Assembly (NCBI RefSeq): GCF_900107585.1 | Contig: NZ_FNQM01000003.1 | Span: 124,001 to 188,000, forward strand | Direction of reading: 5' to 3' | Length of the DNA: 64,000 bases | Source of the DNA: Rubrimonas cliftonensis | GTDB taxonomy: Bacteria; Pseudomonadota; Alphaproteobacteria; Rhodobacterales; Rhodobacteraceae | The notes under the pieces: model-generated | The model's database searches: none | What the model was told of the DNA's origin: nothing | What the model saw: the letters and a program-made list of their open reading frames with translations, nothing else | Shown: one piece after another, positions 1-5,798 of the stretch | Layout: every line of letters starts with the position of its first letter | Position numbering within the stretch: the stretch's first letter is position 1 | Position numbers and translations under genes: made by a program

Positions 1-866
1 CCGCCCGACCAGGAACCGAGCGCCACGGGCGCGCCCTCATGGGCCGCCCAGGCTTCGTCTCCGTCGGAGAGGTCTCCTCCCGCCACCGACACGGCGCGCC
101 CCTGTCTGAGGGACGCCGCGTCGGGCGCTGGGACGGCCAGGGCCGGGATGTCGGCCAGCCCGGTCGCCACCGGCGCCAAGTGCGCTTCAATCGCGTCGCT
201 ATGGCGTATTTCGTCGAGCTTGGCAAACGGGATCGCGTCGCGCTCATGGAACGGCCCCGACCACACCCGCCTGAGCGCGACGACATGGCCGAGACAGCCG
301 AGCGTCTCGCCGAGGTCGCGGGCGACGGAGCGCACATAGCCGCCCTTGCCGCAGGTCATCTCCAGCACGGCGTGGTCGGCGTCGGGCCGCGCTACCAGCG
401 CCAGCCGCGCCACATGCAGCGCCCGCGCCCCGAGTTCGACCTCCTCGCCGGCCCGCGCCAGCGCATAGGCCCGCCGCCCGTCAACCTTCACCGCCGAATA
501 GGCGGGCGGGGTCTGAAGGATGTCGCCGGTGAAGGTCGGCAGCGCGGCCTCGATCTCGGCGTCGGAGGGGCGGGCGTGGCTCAGCGCCGTCACCTCGCCC
601 TCCGCGTCGTCGGTCGCGGTCGCCTGCCCCAGCCGCACGGTGAAGCGATAGGCCTTGAGCGCGCCCTCGATGGCCGAGACGGTCTTGGTCGCCTCGCCGA
701 AGGCGATCGCGAGCACGCCCGTCGCCAGCGGGTCGAGCGTGCCGGCGTGGCCGGCCTTGACCGCCTGCGCCGCCCAGCGCGCCTTGGCCACCGCCTGCGC
801 GCTGCTCACCCCCAACGGCTTGTCGAGCACCAGCCAGCCGTCGACTCTCCTGCCTTTTCGCGCCAT
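1..866 (-). CDS. truB: tRNA pseudouridine(55) synthase TruB (C-terminus beyond window)
   Basis: Makes pseudouridine 55 in the T-loop of tRNAs. The frame opens at an ATG at 866 and stays open to the window edge, giving about 288 residues, so only the extreme C-terminus is missing (family usually about 300). Near the N-terminus is the family signature [15 protein letters not shown], whose Asp45 is the catalytic nucleophile. Further in are [20 protein letters not shown] and [16 protein letters not shown], both typical of TruB. It is separated by 187 bp from the ggp operon upstream, so it probably has its own promoter or belongs to the usual infB-rbfA-truB-rpsO set outside the window. Confidence 0.95.
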
Positions 867-1053
867 TCGACATCTCCGAGGCGCCGCCGGCGCATGGCCC
901 CGGTGCGCGAGGCCCCGAGAGGCCCGGGCGGGATCGGGCGCGGCGCGGAAGATTCCGGCGCCGCGCGCGTGTTCCGGCGCTTCTGCACAACCCCGCGCTC
1001 CGCGGCAACACCCTGCGGCGGCGCGGCGGGGGGTCCGCTCCGCCGCGCCGCCT

Positions 1054-2556
1054 TCAGGCCGCGTCGCCGACTGCATTCGGCGCGATGGCCTCGAAGGTCC
1101 GGCGCTGCTCGGCCATCCAGGCCCTGATGTCGTAACGCCGCACGCGCTCCCGCAGCACCTTCATGCGCTCGCGGCGCTCGTTCTCGGGCATGTCGAGGGC
1201 GTGGTCGATGGCGGCGTCCATGGAGCGGTTGGAGAACGGGTTGGTCATGACCGCAGCCGCCAGCGGCACCGCCGCCCCGGCGAACTCCGACAGCACCAGC
1301 GTCCCGTCGCCGTCGAGCCGCGCCGCCACGTATTCCTGCGCGACGAGGTTGAGACCGTCGCAGAGCGGCGTGATCCAGCACACCGCCGCCGCCTGATGAT
1401 AGGCGACCAGCCGCTTGAAGGCGATCGCGCGGGAGATGAGCGTGACCGGCTGCCAGTTCATCCGCCCGAAGCGGCCGTTGATGCGCCCCGTCACCTCCTC
1501 GATTGTCCGCTGCACCTCCTCGTAGACGGCCATGTTGCGGTTGGCGGGCACGGAGACGAGCATCAGCCGAACCTGGCCGACCAGGTCGGGCCGCCGCTCC
1601 AGCAACCGCTCGAAGGTCAGAAGCTGCTCGATGTTGCCCTTGGTGTAGTCGGTGCGCGAGACCGAGAGAATGAGCTTCACGTCGCCCAGCTCCTCGCGGA
1701 TCTCCGCAAGCTGCGCGGTGGTCTCGTCGTCGCGGGCGATCTTGCCGACATAGTCGACGTCGACGCCGACGGGCCAGGAGCTGAGCGACACGTCGCGCCC
1801 CCTGTGGGAGAGCTTCGTGGGCGTGTTCACCTCTGAAAGCGCCATCCCGGTCGGCGAGAAGTCATCGCGGGTCTCGACTTCCTCGGTGATCGCGGCGCCG
1901 GTCAGCGCATGGGCGGCGTGGGCGAAGTTCGCCGCATAGCGGGGGATGTGGAAGCCGACCGAGTCGCAAGCCAGAAGGCTCTCGACGATCTCCTGTCGCC
2001 ACGGCAGCACCGAGAACATGTCGGCCGACGGGAACGGCGTGTGGTGGAAGAAGGCGATGCGGCATTCCGGCTTGATCTTGCGCAGATAGCCGGGCGCGAG
2101 CCACAGGTTGTAGTCGTGGAACCACACGACGCCCCCCGGCGCCACCTCGCGCGCGGCGGCTTCGGCGAAGGCCCAGTTCACTTCGCGGAACGTCGGCCAG
2201 TCGACGGGGTCGTAGTTGTAGCGCTCCTTGAAGGAGTGGAGGATCGGCCAGATCGCCTCCTTGGAGGTGACGTGGTAGAAGCTCCTCACCTGCTGCGAGG
2301 TGAGCGCCAGCCGCGAGACGTTGTAGCTGCCGTAGCTGTCCTCGATGTGGACGACCTTCTCGAAGCGCTCGCGCTCCTCCTCGTCGTCCACCTGCTCCCA
2401 GGCGACCCAGGCGCCTTCGCCGTCGCGGCCCATGAAGCTCTTGAGCGTCGGCACGATGCCGTTGGGGCTCTTGTTCTCGCGCAGCACGGGCTGTCCGTCG
2501 ACCATGACCTGCTCGTAGGGCTGGCGATGATAGACGACGACGAGATCAGACGGCAT
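1054..2556 (-). CDS. ggpS: Glucosylglycerol-phosphate synthase (GT20 family)
   Basis: Predicted to transfer glucose from ADP-glucose to sn-glycerol-3-phosphate, the first step to the osmolyte glucosylglycerol. The 500-aa length matches cyanobacterial GgpS (about 499 aa). From memory of that family, segments such as [41 protein letters not shown] and [18 protein letters not shown] are close to GgpS. The GGLAVGL-type motif expected near the N-terminus of trehalose-phosphate synthase OtsA is absent. The conserved [18 protein letters not shown] donor-site segment is present. I chose the ATG at 2556 because AGGAGGAGAC lies 5 nt upstream. An ATG at 2577 would add seven residues and lacks a good ribosome site. 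The gene overlaps the phosphatase stop by 11 nt. OtsA is the alternative, made unlikely by the gpsA context. Confidence 0.86.
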
Positions 2557-3346
2557 GGGCGTCTCCTCCTTGATCATGATTGGCGGCGGCGGTCGCGGGA
2601 AAATCCGCGAAGCGGAGCCGCGCCAGAGCCTCGGCGACGCCGGCGGCGCCGACGCCCTCGGCGAAATGGACGTGGTCGAGACCGTTCAGCCGCTCAAGCA
2701 AGGCGGGCTCCGAGCCGCCGACGGCGACCGCGGGAACGCCTATCGCCAGCATCGACAGGTCGTTGAGCGTGTCTCCGGCGGCGAGCACCCGGTCCCGCGG
2801 CAGGTTCAGCCAGTCCGCGAGCCGCACCAGCGACGGGCCCTTGCTGACGCCCTTCGGCAGAACGTCGAAGTACCTGTCGGCGGAGATCAGCCAGTCATGG
2901 CCGAGACCCTCGACGATCCGCTGCGCCGCGCCGTCATAGGCGTCGGGGAAGAAATCGTAGCTGACGCGGTGGCGGAAGGGCGTCGGCTGCAGCTTCAGGC
3001 CCGCCGCGCCGTCCAGCTTCTCGCGGACGACGGCGCCGGCGTCGCCCCAGGCGCCGGCGATCTCGGTCTCCAGCTCCGCGATGGGGCGGACGCGGCGATC
3101 CACGACCTGCGCGATGGTCGTCCCGACATCGCCGACGACGTATTCCGGCCACGGCACGAAGCCGTCGCCGCAGAGCTCCTCGATGAACTCGGGGTCGCGC
3201 CCCGTGACGAAGATCAGTCCGAGCCGCCCGCGCCGCGCCTCGATCGCGTCGTAGAGCGCGCGGCGGTGGTCGTCAGTCCCGCCGAGGAAGGTGCCGTCGA
3301 GATCCGTCGCGAGGGCGCACTCCCACCCGTGCCGGGCGCCGCTCAT
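2546..3346 (-). CDS. HAD-IIB phosphatase, probable glucosylglycerol-phosphate phosphatase
   Basis: A 266-aa HAD-superfamily hydrolase of the sucrose/mannosyl-phosphoglycerate phosphatase type. Motif I is ATDLDGTFLGG with Asp15 and Asp17, motif II-like FVTGRD follows, and motif IV is AAGDTLNDLSML, so the catalytic set looks complete. It lies between gpsA (ATGA overlap at its start) and ggpS (11-nt overlap at its end), so it very likely removes the phosphate from glucosylglycerol-phosphate (GgpP role). In known heterotrophic proteobacteria a HAD domain is fused to GgpS as GgpPS; here the two parts are separate genes. The substrate assignment is from context only. Confidence 0.8.
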   Translation of the reverse strand: MSGARHGWECALATDLDGTFLGGTDDHRRALYDAIEARRGRLGLIFVTGRDPEFIEELCGDGFVPWPEYVVGDVGTTIAQVVDRRVRPIAELETEIAGAWGDAGAVVREKLDGAAGLKLQPTPFRHRVSYDFFPDAYDGAAQRIVEGLGHDWLISADRYFDVLPKGVSKGPSLVRLADWLNLPRDRVLAAGDTLNDLSMLAIGVPAVAVGGSEPALLERLNGLDHVHFAEGVGAAGVAEALARLRFADFPATAAANHDQGGDAHAV

Positions 3347-4449
3347 GACGCCGCCGGGTGCGCGATGGCGAGGTCGAGCGCCCGCGGCTCGCCCTCCAGC
3401 GGTCTCGTCCACAGCCTGTGGAACGCCTCCCTGAACGCCTCGCCGTCGTGGACGACGCTGCGCACCGCCTCGCAGATCGGCATCTCGACGCCGCGCGCGC
3501 GGGCGAGCTCCGTCACCGAGACGGCGTTGCGCACGCCCTCGACCAGAGCGCCGCTGTCGGCCTTCTCGCCGCGCCCAAGCCGCAGGCCATAGGCGAAGTT
3601 GCGCGACTTGGCGTCGGAGGCGGTAAGGCTGAGGTCGCCCATGCCCGAAAGCCCCGTCACCGTCTCGCGCCGCCCGCCCAGCGCGTGCGCGAGGCTCTTG
3701 ATCTCGTCGAGGCCCCGCGTGATCAGCGCCGCGCGGGCGTTGTGTCCGAAGCCGGCGCCCTCGGCCATGCCGGTCGCGATGGCGATGACGTTCTTCACCG
3801 CGCCGCCGATCTCCACGCCCATCAGGTCGTCGGAGACGTAGCAGCGGAAGGTCGGCGTGCTCATCGACAGCGCGAGGCGCGCGGCGATGGAGGTCTCGGG
3901 CGTCTCGTCGCCGGCGCAGCTCGACGCGATCACCACCGCTGTCGGCAGGTCGCGCGCCACCTCGTCCGCGAAGCTGGGGCCGGAGAGAGCGGCGATGCGG
4001 AAGCCCGGCGCGGCCTGCGCCGCCACCTCGCTCATCAGCAGCCCGCTGCCCTGCTCGACGCCCTTGGCCGCCAAGGCGATCGGCGCGCCGGGCGCGAGAT
4101 GCGGGGCCAGCGAGGCGACCGTCTCCCGCAGCGCATGGGAGGGAACGACCACCAGCGCGGCCTGGGCGCCGGCCAGCGCCTCGCGCAGGTCCGCGGTGGC
4201 GCGGATCTGCGGCGGCAGCGCCGCGTCGCCGAGATAGCGCGCGTTGCGGTGGGTCGCGTTGATCTCGGCGGCGAGCTCCGGCCGCCGCGCCCACAGCGTC
4301 ACGGACCGCCCCGCGCGCGCCGCCACCGCCGCCAGCGCCGCGCCCCAGGCGCCCGCTCCGATGACCGCTATGCGGCCGTAACCGCCTGCCAATTCGGCCG
4401 TGGGCGATGGTCGCTGATGGGCGTGTGCGGAGAGGTCGATGACATCCAT
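3343..4449 (-). CDS. gpsA: Glycerol-3-phosphate dehydrogenase [NAD(P)+]
   Basis: Reduces dihydroxyacetone phosphate to sn-glycerol-3-phosphate in the cytoplasm. The 368-aa product has the Rossmann signature RIAVIGAGAWGAALA at residues 26-40, then LSGPSFADEVA, the catalytic-region segment GGAVKNVIAIATGMAEG and TGLSGMGDLSLT. The ATG at 4449 is preceded by AGGAG 7 nt upstream. A start at 4530 would add 27 residues over non-conserved sequence. The N-terminus is about 25 residues longer than typical GpsA. As first gene of gpsA - phosphatase - ggpS it can supply the acceptor substrate of GgpS, although it may also serve phospholipid synthesis. Confidence 0.93.
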   Translation of the reverse strand: MDVIDLSAHAHQRPSPTAELAGGYGRIAVIGAGAWGAALAAVAARAGRSVTLWARRPELAAEINATHRNARYLGDAALPPQIRATADLREALAGAQAALVVVPSHALRETVASLAPHLAPGAPIALAAKGVEQGSGLLMSEVAAQAAPGFRIAALSGPSFADEVARDLPTAVVIASSCAGDETPETSIAARLALSMSTPTFRCYVSDDLMGVEIGGAVKNVIAIATGMAEGAGFGHNARAALITRGLDEIKSLAHALGGRRETVTGLSGMGDLSLTASDAKSRNFAYGLRLGRGEKADSGALVEGVRNAVSVTELARARGVEMPICEAVRSVVHDGEAFREAFHRLWTRPLEGEPRALDLAIAHPAAS

Positions 4450-4814
4450 GGAGGCTCCTGTGCGTCGCGAAGTTGCGTTGGCCGCAGACCAACGCGCGCC
4501 GCGCAAAGTCGTTGCGCAGCAACCCTTCATGCGTCCAAATGTAGCGAGGCCCGCCGGTTAAATCAACCGCGTCGCCGCGGCGCAAAAAACCAACCTCACG
4601 AGACTCGCATCAGTCACTATTATATAGTATAGTAATGATAGTGAGCTTGTACTATCAGTAGTCACATACAATACTATATTTTACTGGCGGGCAAGGCATG
4701 TGGGAAAATCACTGGCCCGCCGATGATGCGGCGCAAAACTTCGCCCTGGAACGAAACTGTCACAACCCTCTGTTAACCAGTCGCATGAATACCCCAGCCA
4801 TCAGCAGGTCCGCC
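4450..4814. promoter_or_regulatory. Divergent promoter region with AT-rich island
   Basis: This gap separates the glucosylglycerol operon (minus) from the Fe-type ABC genes (plus). About 4600-4685 is strikingly AT-rich against the GC-rich surroundings and holds many TAGTA/ACTAT strings. An inverted repeat TCACTAT (4614-4620) / ATAGTGA (4638-4644) with a 17-bp spacer is visible. The spacer itself holds TATATAGTATAG, a plausible -10 region. I could not match it to a known regulator box. Confidence 0.5.
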
Positions 4815-5798
4815 ATGAAATCGCTCGTCTCAGCCCTCGTCGGCGCCGCGGCGCTCGCCGCCTTTCCCGGTCTCGCCGAAGCGGCGTCGGGCAAGCTGGT
4901 GCTCTACACCTCGCAGCCGAACGAGGACGCGCAGCAGACCGTCGACGCCTTCATCGCGGCGCACCCCGACGTCGAGGTGGAATGGGTGCGCGACGGCACG
5001 ACCAAGATCATGGCGAAGCTCCGCGCGGAGTTCGAGGCCGGCGCCCCGCAGCCCGACGTTCTGCTCATCGCCGACACCGTCACGATGGAGAGCCTCGAAG
5101 CCGAGGGCCGGCTCATGCCGCACCCCGACGCGGACGTTTCCGCCTATGCGCCGGGGCTGATGGACCCGGAGGGCCACTACTTCTCGACGAAGCTCATCAC
5201 CACCGGCATCGCCTACAACACCGCCGCGCCGATGCAGCCGACCTCCTACGCCGACCTTGCCAACGCCGAGGCCGCCGGGGCCTTCATGATGCCTTCCCCG
5301 CTCACCTCCGGCGCGGCGACGATCCACATGGTCGCGCTGACCGGCCAGCCCGACATCGGCTGGAAGTTCTACGAGACGCTGGCCGACAACGGCGCGGTCG
5401 CCTCCGGCGGCAATGGCGGGGTGCTGCGCGCCATCGCCGGCGGCGAGAAGCTCTACGGCTTCCTCGTGGACTTCCTCGCGATCCGCGAGGCCGCCAAGGG
5501 CGCGCCGGTGGGCTTCGTGTTCCCGACCGAGGGCGTATCGGCGGTGACCGAGCCGGTCGCGATCCTCTCAACCGCGCAGAACCCCGAAGCGGCGAAGGCT
5601 TTCGTCGATTTCCTCATCTCGCCTGCGGGCCAGCAGCTCGCCGCCGACATGGGCTATCTGCCGGCGCATCCCGCGATCACGCCGCCGGAGGGTTTTCCGC
5701 CCCTGAGCGAGATCAAGCTGCTCGACTTCGACCCGGCCAAGGCGCTCGCCGAGGACGAGGACAACAAGAAGCGCTTCATCGACATGTTCGGCGGCTGA
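4815..5798 (+). CDS. ABC transporter substrate-binding protein, Fe3+/2-aminoethylphosphonate type
   Basis: A 327-aa periplasmic binding protein. The first 23 residues form a signal peptide (MKSLVSALVGAAALAAFPGL, then AEA). The mature part opens with GKLVLYTSQPNEDAQQTVDAF, as in family 1/FbpA-like proteins that bind Fe3+ or aminoethylphosphonate. The C-terminal half holds PVAILSTAQNPEAAKAFVDF, a usual segment in this family. The ATG at 4815 is preferred because the signal peptide starts there; in-frame ATGs at 4698 and 4785 would add polar residues ahead of it. It is followed 8 nt later by the permease. The ligand cannot be fixed from sequence. Confidence 0.8.
   Translation: MKSLVSALVGAAALAAFPGLAEAASGKLVLYTSQPNEDAQQTVDAFIAAHPDVEVEWVRDGTTKIMAKLRAEFEAGAPQPDVLLIADTVTMESLEAEGRLMPHPDADVSAYAPGLMDPEGHYFSTKLITTGIAYNTAAPMQPTSYADLANAEAAGAFMMPSPLTSGAATIHMVALTGQPDIGWKFYETLADNGAVASGGNGGVLRAIAGGEKLYGFLVDFLAIREAAKGAPVGFVFPTEGVSAVTEPVAILSTAQNPEAAKAFVDFLISPAGQQLAADMGYLPAHPAITPPEGFPPLSEIKLLDFDPAKALAEDEDNKKRFIDMFGG

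Follow-up and report, generated by a model that had tools for sequence, protein, structure and literature searches.

The window, by which we mean the whole 64,000-nucleotide stretch analysed (G000:C58:124001-188000), belongs to a 4.86-Mb draft genome of Rubrimonas cliftonensis (G000; 98 contigs, 99.69% complete). On the minus strand three of its open frames follow one another in the order gpsA, HAD phosphatase, GT20 synthase; the first two overlap by 4 nt (3343-3346) and the last two by 11 nt (2546-2556), just as a preliminary description of this DNA had stated. The features of the locus are as follows.

4450-4802: divergent intergenic region, presumed to hold the promoters of the operon (minus strand) and of the ABC transporter genes (plus strand)
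4449-3343, minus strand: gpsA, NAD(P)H-dependent glycerol-3-phosphate dehydrogenase of the operon ('ggp') type, 368 aa
3346-2546, minus strand: unfused HAD-IIB phosphatase of the S6PP family, presumed glucosylglycerol-phosphate phosphatase, 266 aa
2556-1054, minus strand: ggpS, glucosylglycerol-phosphate synthase (GT20), 500 aa
Downstream of the GT20 gene, minus strand as the operon: truB, the frame being named by eye
Upstream of the operon, divergent (plus strand): ABC transporter genes, the first for a solute-binding protein

The operon layout and the alphaproteobacterial host proposed in that description are both borne out. The arrangement is not one of chance: among 111 loci with relatives of the GT20 gene, 18 of them OtsA-like, 92 have a relative of the phosphatase and 70 a GpsA match. 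The same 4-nt overlap, ATGA, is possible at 75 of 94 gpsA-phosphatase junctions measured, a set in which a few places were fetched repeatedly, and another genome of the same genus (G446, locus L274) has the identical gene order. The operon was also found in Xanthobacter, Tistrella, Cohaesibacter and a Variovorax. Dinoroseobacter shibae pDSHI02 (NC_009956; L293) and other Rhodobacterales have the same three genes, the synthase gene annotated ggpS, in the same order and with the same type of phosphatase; unlike the window operon, the D. shibae copy is on a plasmid, where it adjoins genes for a sigma factor, an anti-sigma factor of the NepR family, a histidine kinase and a response regulator.

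Other copies of the operon are on plasmids too: in Falsirhodobacter algicola (L294) it lies directly behind plasmid partition and replication genes, and in Tistrella mobilis it is carried by pTM3, of 1.1 Mb (L295). The only gpsA found in genome G537 is an operon copy nearly identical to that of Tistrella, and may itself be plasmid-borne. In the betaproteobacterium Variovorax dokdonensis (L102) an operon of the alphaproteobacterial type stands beside the species' own gpsA, and points to transfer between classes.

Identity of the synthase and the phosphatase

The preliminary description took the GT20 enzyme for GgpS rather than OtsA, and the phylogeny it called for has now been made. Against the curated GgpS model TIGR02398 the protein scores 643 bits, above the cut-off of 569, and against the OtsA model TIGR02400 it scores 404 bits, below the cut-off of 564.85. 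In a 65-row tree (outgroup: 18 OtsA-like rows), from which cyanobacterial GgpS are absent and whose output warns of long branches meeting at the root, it groups with 46 other GgpS, apart from the OtsA-like rows; the resulting 47-row GgpS side has a starred support of 100. All 47 of these rows have H, N, F, H and A at the columns of E. coli OtsA N9, G22, Y76, L154 and S300 (Met-counted, acceptor-side), where the 18 OtsA-like rows have N, G or S, Y (F in 2 of the 18), L or W, and S or T, the comparison being by column alone with no role assigned to any residue. Profiles, tree and columns thus all uphold the reading as GgpS. That the enzyme is instead a trehalose-phosphate synthase and the operon a trehalose one is an alternative to which we give next to no weight: the family match, PF00982, is common to GgpS and trehalose-phosphate synthases, and its nearest matches of known structure are trehalose-phosphate synthases, no GgpS being named among 23 such matches, but the same profile cut-offs, tree and acceptor-side columns led us to reject it, and the partnership of the GT20 gene with gpsA also speaks against it.

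No other GT20 was found in the genome. ADP-glucose could be supplied through glgC, which is present in G000 (470 bits, cut-off 424.9). Only 17 of 21 genomes searched have a glgC above this cut-off, and the donor may thus differ from ADP-glucose in some. Unlike in G000, glgC is a near neighbour of the operon gpsA in G401, G402, G413 (Albimonas) and G492, about 5-7 kb away. Across a sample of the phylum, 12 of 398 genomes had a GgpS above the cut-off, fused in five of the 12.

The phosphatase has as its best profile PF05116, the S6PP-type HAD-IIB family (124 bits, cut-off 20.3, 1e-35), and among its matches with E up to 0.001 there is no salt-tolerance phosphatase model, meaning TIGR02399/PF09506, which we take to be those of the cyanobacterial GgpP/StpA enzyme. 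GDTLND and GVSKG are found in it, and HAD motifs I, II and IV are intact. Motif IV is present in 41 of 42 separate and in all five fused phosphatases, the single miss (L013) being a fragment: at that locus, in G003, ggpS is unfused and the phosphatase frame is open over no more than a short piece, perhaps a decaying gene or a sequencing error.

A phosphatase-synthase fusion, GgpPS, is known from Stenotrophomonas, Pseudomonas, Azotobacter and Marinobacter (reported in PMC10873239). Its halves are homologous to the two window proteins and stand in the same order, the window phosphatase showing 37-43% identity to the N-terminal domain in five GgpPS fusions, but in the window the two are separate overlapping genes with gpsA in front: they occupy different frames with an 11-nt overlap, not one frame, and the phosphatase, as had been suggested, is a gene in its own right. 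Separate genes are the rule, at 115 of the 120 loci that have both (some places being fetched more than once), with fusions at the other five. In the OtsA-rooted tree the five fused and 42 unfused GgpS are reciprocally monophyletic sister clades (starred supports of 98 and 99), and a midpoint-rooted phosphatase tree gives the same clean split (97, starred). Sister clades do not give the direction of change, fusion or fission, and speak neither for nor against the suggestion in the preliminary description that the unfused form looks ancestral; the phosphatase-synthase pair is therefore old, one fusion or one fission sufficing in this sample. Cyanobacteria have GgpS and GgpP (StpA), and in some strains ggpS lies near glpD/glpK/gpsA, according to PMC6753628; the window resembles them in having a GgpS-family synthase separate from its phosphatase, and G3P genes close by, but its phosphatase is of another HAD family, S6PP.

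From these family-level identities, the most likely product of the operon is glucosylglycerol (GG), a salt protectant. GpsA would reduce dihydroxyacetone phosphate to glycerol-3-phosphate (G3P), GgpS would join glucose from ADP-glucose to G3P to form GG-phosphate, and the HAD phosphatase would remove the phosphate to leave GG, a compatible solute. The GgpS and GgpP steps are reported as established in cyanobacteria (PMC6753628), and in an engineered cyanobacterium raised G3P dehydrogenase increased GG by 26-42%, G3P supply being described as limiting (PMC8168540); such a limitation would provide a reason for recruitment of gpsA into the operon. A glucosylglycerol-phosphate synthase gene is reported, without its context, for a deep-sea relative (PMC7002103).

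gpsA copies and the tsaD locus

The window GpsA scores 395 bits against NF000942 (cut-off 257) and has the domains PF01210 (N-terminal) and PF07479 (C-terminal). It is the single PF07479 match in G000, where no second gpsA was found; the same-genus genome G446 likewise has one only. Here the preliminary description is not supported as it stands, since an "own G3P supply" suggests a further GpsA reserved for the operon. G3P is also a phospholipid precursor, and as no other GpsA was found in G000 the window enzyme presumably serves phospholipid synthesis as well.

PF07479 was searched in 59 + 12 genomes, which come to 68 distinct ones, three pairs of handles denoting the same places; all were picked for relatives of ggpS or of the window gpsA, and the counts are not natural frequencies. 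Every one of the 68 has at least one gpsA. Operon-type gpsA is present in 58, of which 36 have another gpsA and 22 do not; in these 22 the gene is inside the operon in 20 and away from it in G418 and G453. Five more genomes (G408, G435, G445, G448, G482) have ggpS but only a gpsA linked to tsaD, so either of the two copies can evidently be retained; the other five (G003, G190, G308, G366, G397) are outside these patterns. The copy numbers are those given by PF07479; a protein-mode search for GpsA in 111 relatives, restricted to the best 18 candidates or fewer per genome, was incomplete, with no match in eight and nothing but partial or weak ones in some of the rest.

The place that gpsA usually occupies is known: TsaD-GpsA-YciI-EVE is described as a conserved order in alphaproteobacteria (PMC7641849). 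In G000 tsaD and yciI (PF00814 and PF03795 by Pfam) are still adjacent, but gpsA is absent from between them, only 28 nt separating the tsaD stop from the yciI start. The second gpsA of two-copy genomes adjoins tsaD in 34 of the 35 examined (the exception is the Variovorax G441; G422 was left out), and yciI, where found, starts at least 932 nt after the tsaD match. All 22 single-copy operon-type genomes, on the other hand, have a tsaD locus without gpsA, the weakest case being G446, whose locus ends 621 nt after tsaD. The junction is clean in 14 of them, with yciI at most 113 nt from tsaD in 12 and EVE at most 42 nt away in two; in the remaining eight the surroundings of tsaD are rearranged or out of view. 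A 74-row tsaD tree, made by a quick method and with some genomes present twice, calls for 11 changes in whether gpsA stands next to tsaD, at least five of them forced by well-supported (starred) branches. In the literature surveyed (titles and the starts of abstracts, subscription journals being mostly outside its scope) we found no description of the operon in alphaproteobacteria, nor of loss of the tsaD-linked gpsA.

The sole gpsA of G453 is an orphan of the operon type (L273 6081-7310), and yciI is 65 nt from tsaD there; the genome gave no ggpS match at the limit used, and neither phosphatase nor ggpS was seen near its gpsA. This is as would be expected had the GG genes been lost after the native gpsA was gone. 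Operon-type GpsA has type-specific alignment columns, to none of which a role was given, and the idea that it has lost feedback control was dropped, E. coli position 255, the residue considered, being Asp in the sequence.

If, as the preliminary description has it, the operon gpsA were an extra copy dedicated to osmolyte synthesis, the genome would have a housekeeping gpsA as well. The two gpsA of 36 of the 58 genomes with an operon-type copy fit such an arrangement, but the one gpsA of G000 and its absence from the tsaD locus make it very improbable here. One gpsA per genome would equally result if the native Rhodobacterales gene had simply moved next to the GG genes, displacing nothing. The phylogeny makes this barely credible: in a tree of 46 rows selected by us from 133, with which the 133-row tree agrees, operon-type gpsA form one clade that includes the window gene (100/100) and the tsaD-linked gpsA of Rhodobacterales form another (100/98), and the AU test rejects placement of the window gpsA with the latter (p=0.0015). 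The window gene is neither adjacent to tsaD nor a member of the tsaD-linked clade.

There is less to set against a duplication inside Rhodobacterales, in which fast-evolving tsaD-linked copies have been misplaced by the tree and the operon gpsA still displaced the other copy. A single group made up of all operon-type gpsA and the tsaD-linked gpsA of Rhodobacterales survives the AU test (p=0.112), but the unconstrained tree is better by 27.8 log units, the operon-type clade is nested among non-Rhodobacterales alphaproteobacterial gpsA (95/91 at a node of 28 rows), and the operon occurs in Xanthobacter and the other genera named above; we consider this origin unlikely. Transfer from another alphaproteobacterial group is the origin favoured by the tree.

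We therefore hold it very probable that this is a GG operon whose gpsA, the only one found and a member of the operon-linked lineage, has displaced the native copy between tsaD and yciI. The osmolyte operon appears to have displaced the housekeeping gpsA repeatedly, in this genome and in several lineages related to it. The case for displacement is clearest within Rhodobacterales; in four lineages outside that order (G016=G442, G032, G522, G537) the gene in the operon might be the original gpsA in a new place.

Control of the operon and consequences of the proposed displacement

The region upstream contains a single sigma-70-like match (4706-4678, minus strand), where 0.3 are expected in shuffles of region 800-5000. 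Between the gpsA operon and the ABC transporter genes, at 4607-4692, the DNA is AT-rich and has several imperfect inverted repeats, possibly an operator. The sigma factor and NepR genes beside the D. shibae operon led us to look for EcfG-like sites. They are found upstream of operon-type gpsA in 11 of 72 cases (reverse strand, 2 of 72), compared with 0 of 68 upstream of tsaD and, at loci without gpsA, 0 of 17 upstream of the phosphatase; with a wider spacer and another set of rows the figure is 9 of 75, about 1.2 being expected. The loci concerned (L034, L035, L044, L055, L060, L069, L075, L078, L088, L209, L214) include several close relatives. The same motif search found no EcfG-type site upstream of the window gpsA, and control of the window operon by the general stress response (EcfG) was rejected; it is a lead for some relatives.

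The enzymes are ordinary ones and the operon is widespread in alphaproteobacteria; what is unexpected is that it is the only home of gpsA here. Its sole GpsA would feed both phospholipid and GG synthesis, and since G3P is needed for the former the operon would have to be on in all conditions. It is possible, and we put it forward tentatively, that the supply of phospholipid precursor has come to depend on the GG operon, here and independently elsewhere, through one transcript, one G3P pool and perhaps one salt-responsive control.

The story of an extra precursor gene is thereby recast as one of gene displacement: a stress operon would have replaced a housekeeping gene, repeatedly, leaving scars that can be read at the old site. 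Two predictions follow, that cells not supplied with glycerol or G3P depend for growth on the operon's gpsA but not on its ggpS, and that the GG operon is never fully switched off. Close relatives, some with a single gpsA and some with two, make it possible to test how G3P is shared between lipid and osmolyte. If displacement is what occurred, an essential membrane-lipid gene may have been taken over by the GG operon, and osmolyte and membrane synthesis may be tied together through it.
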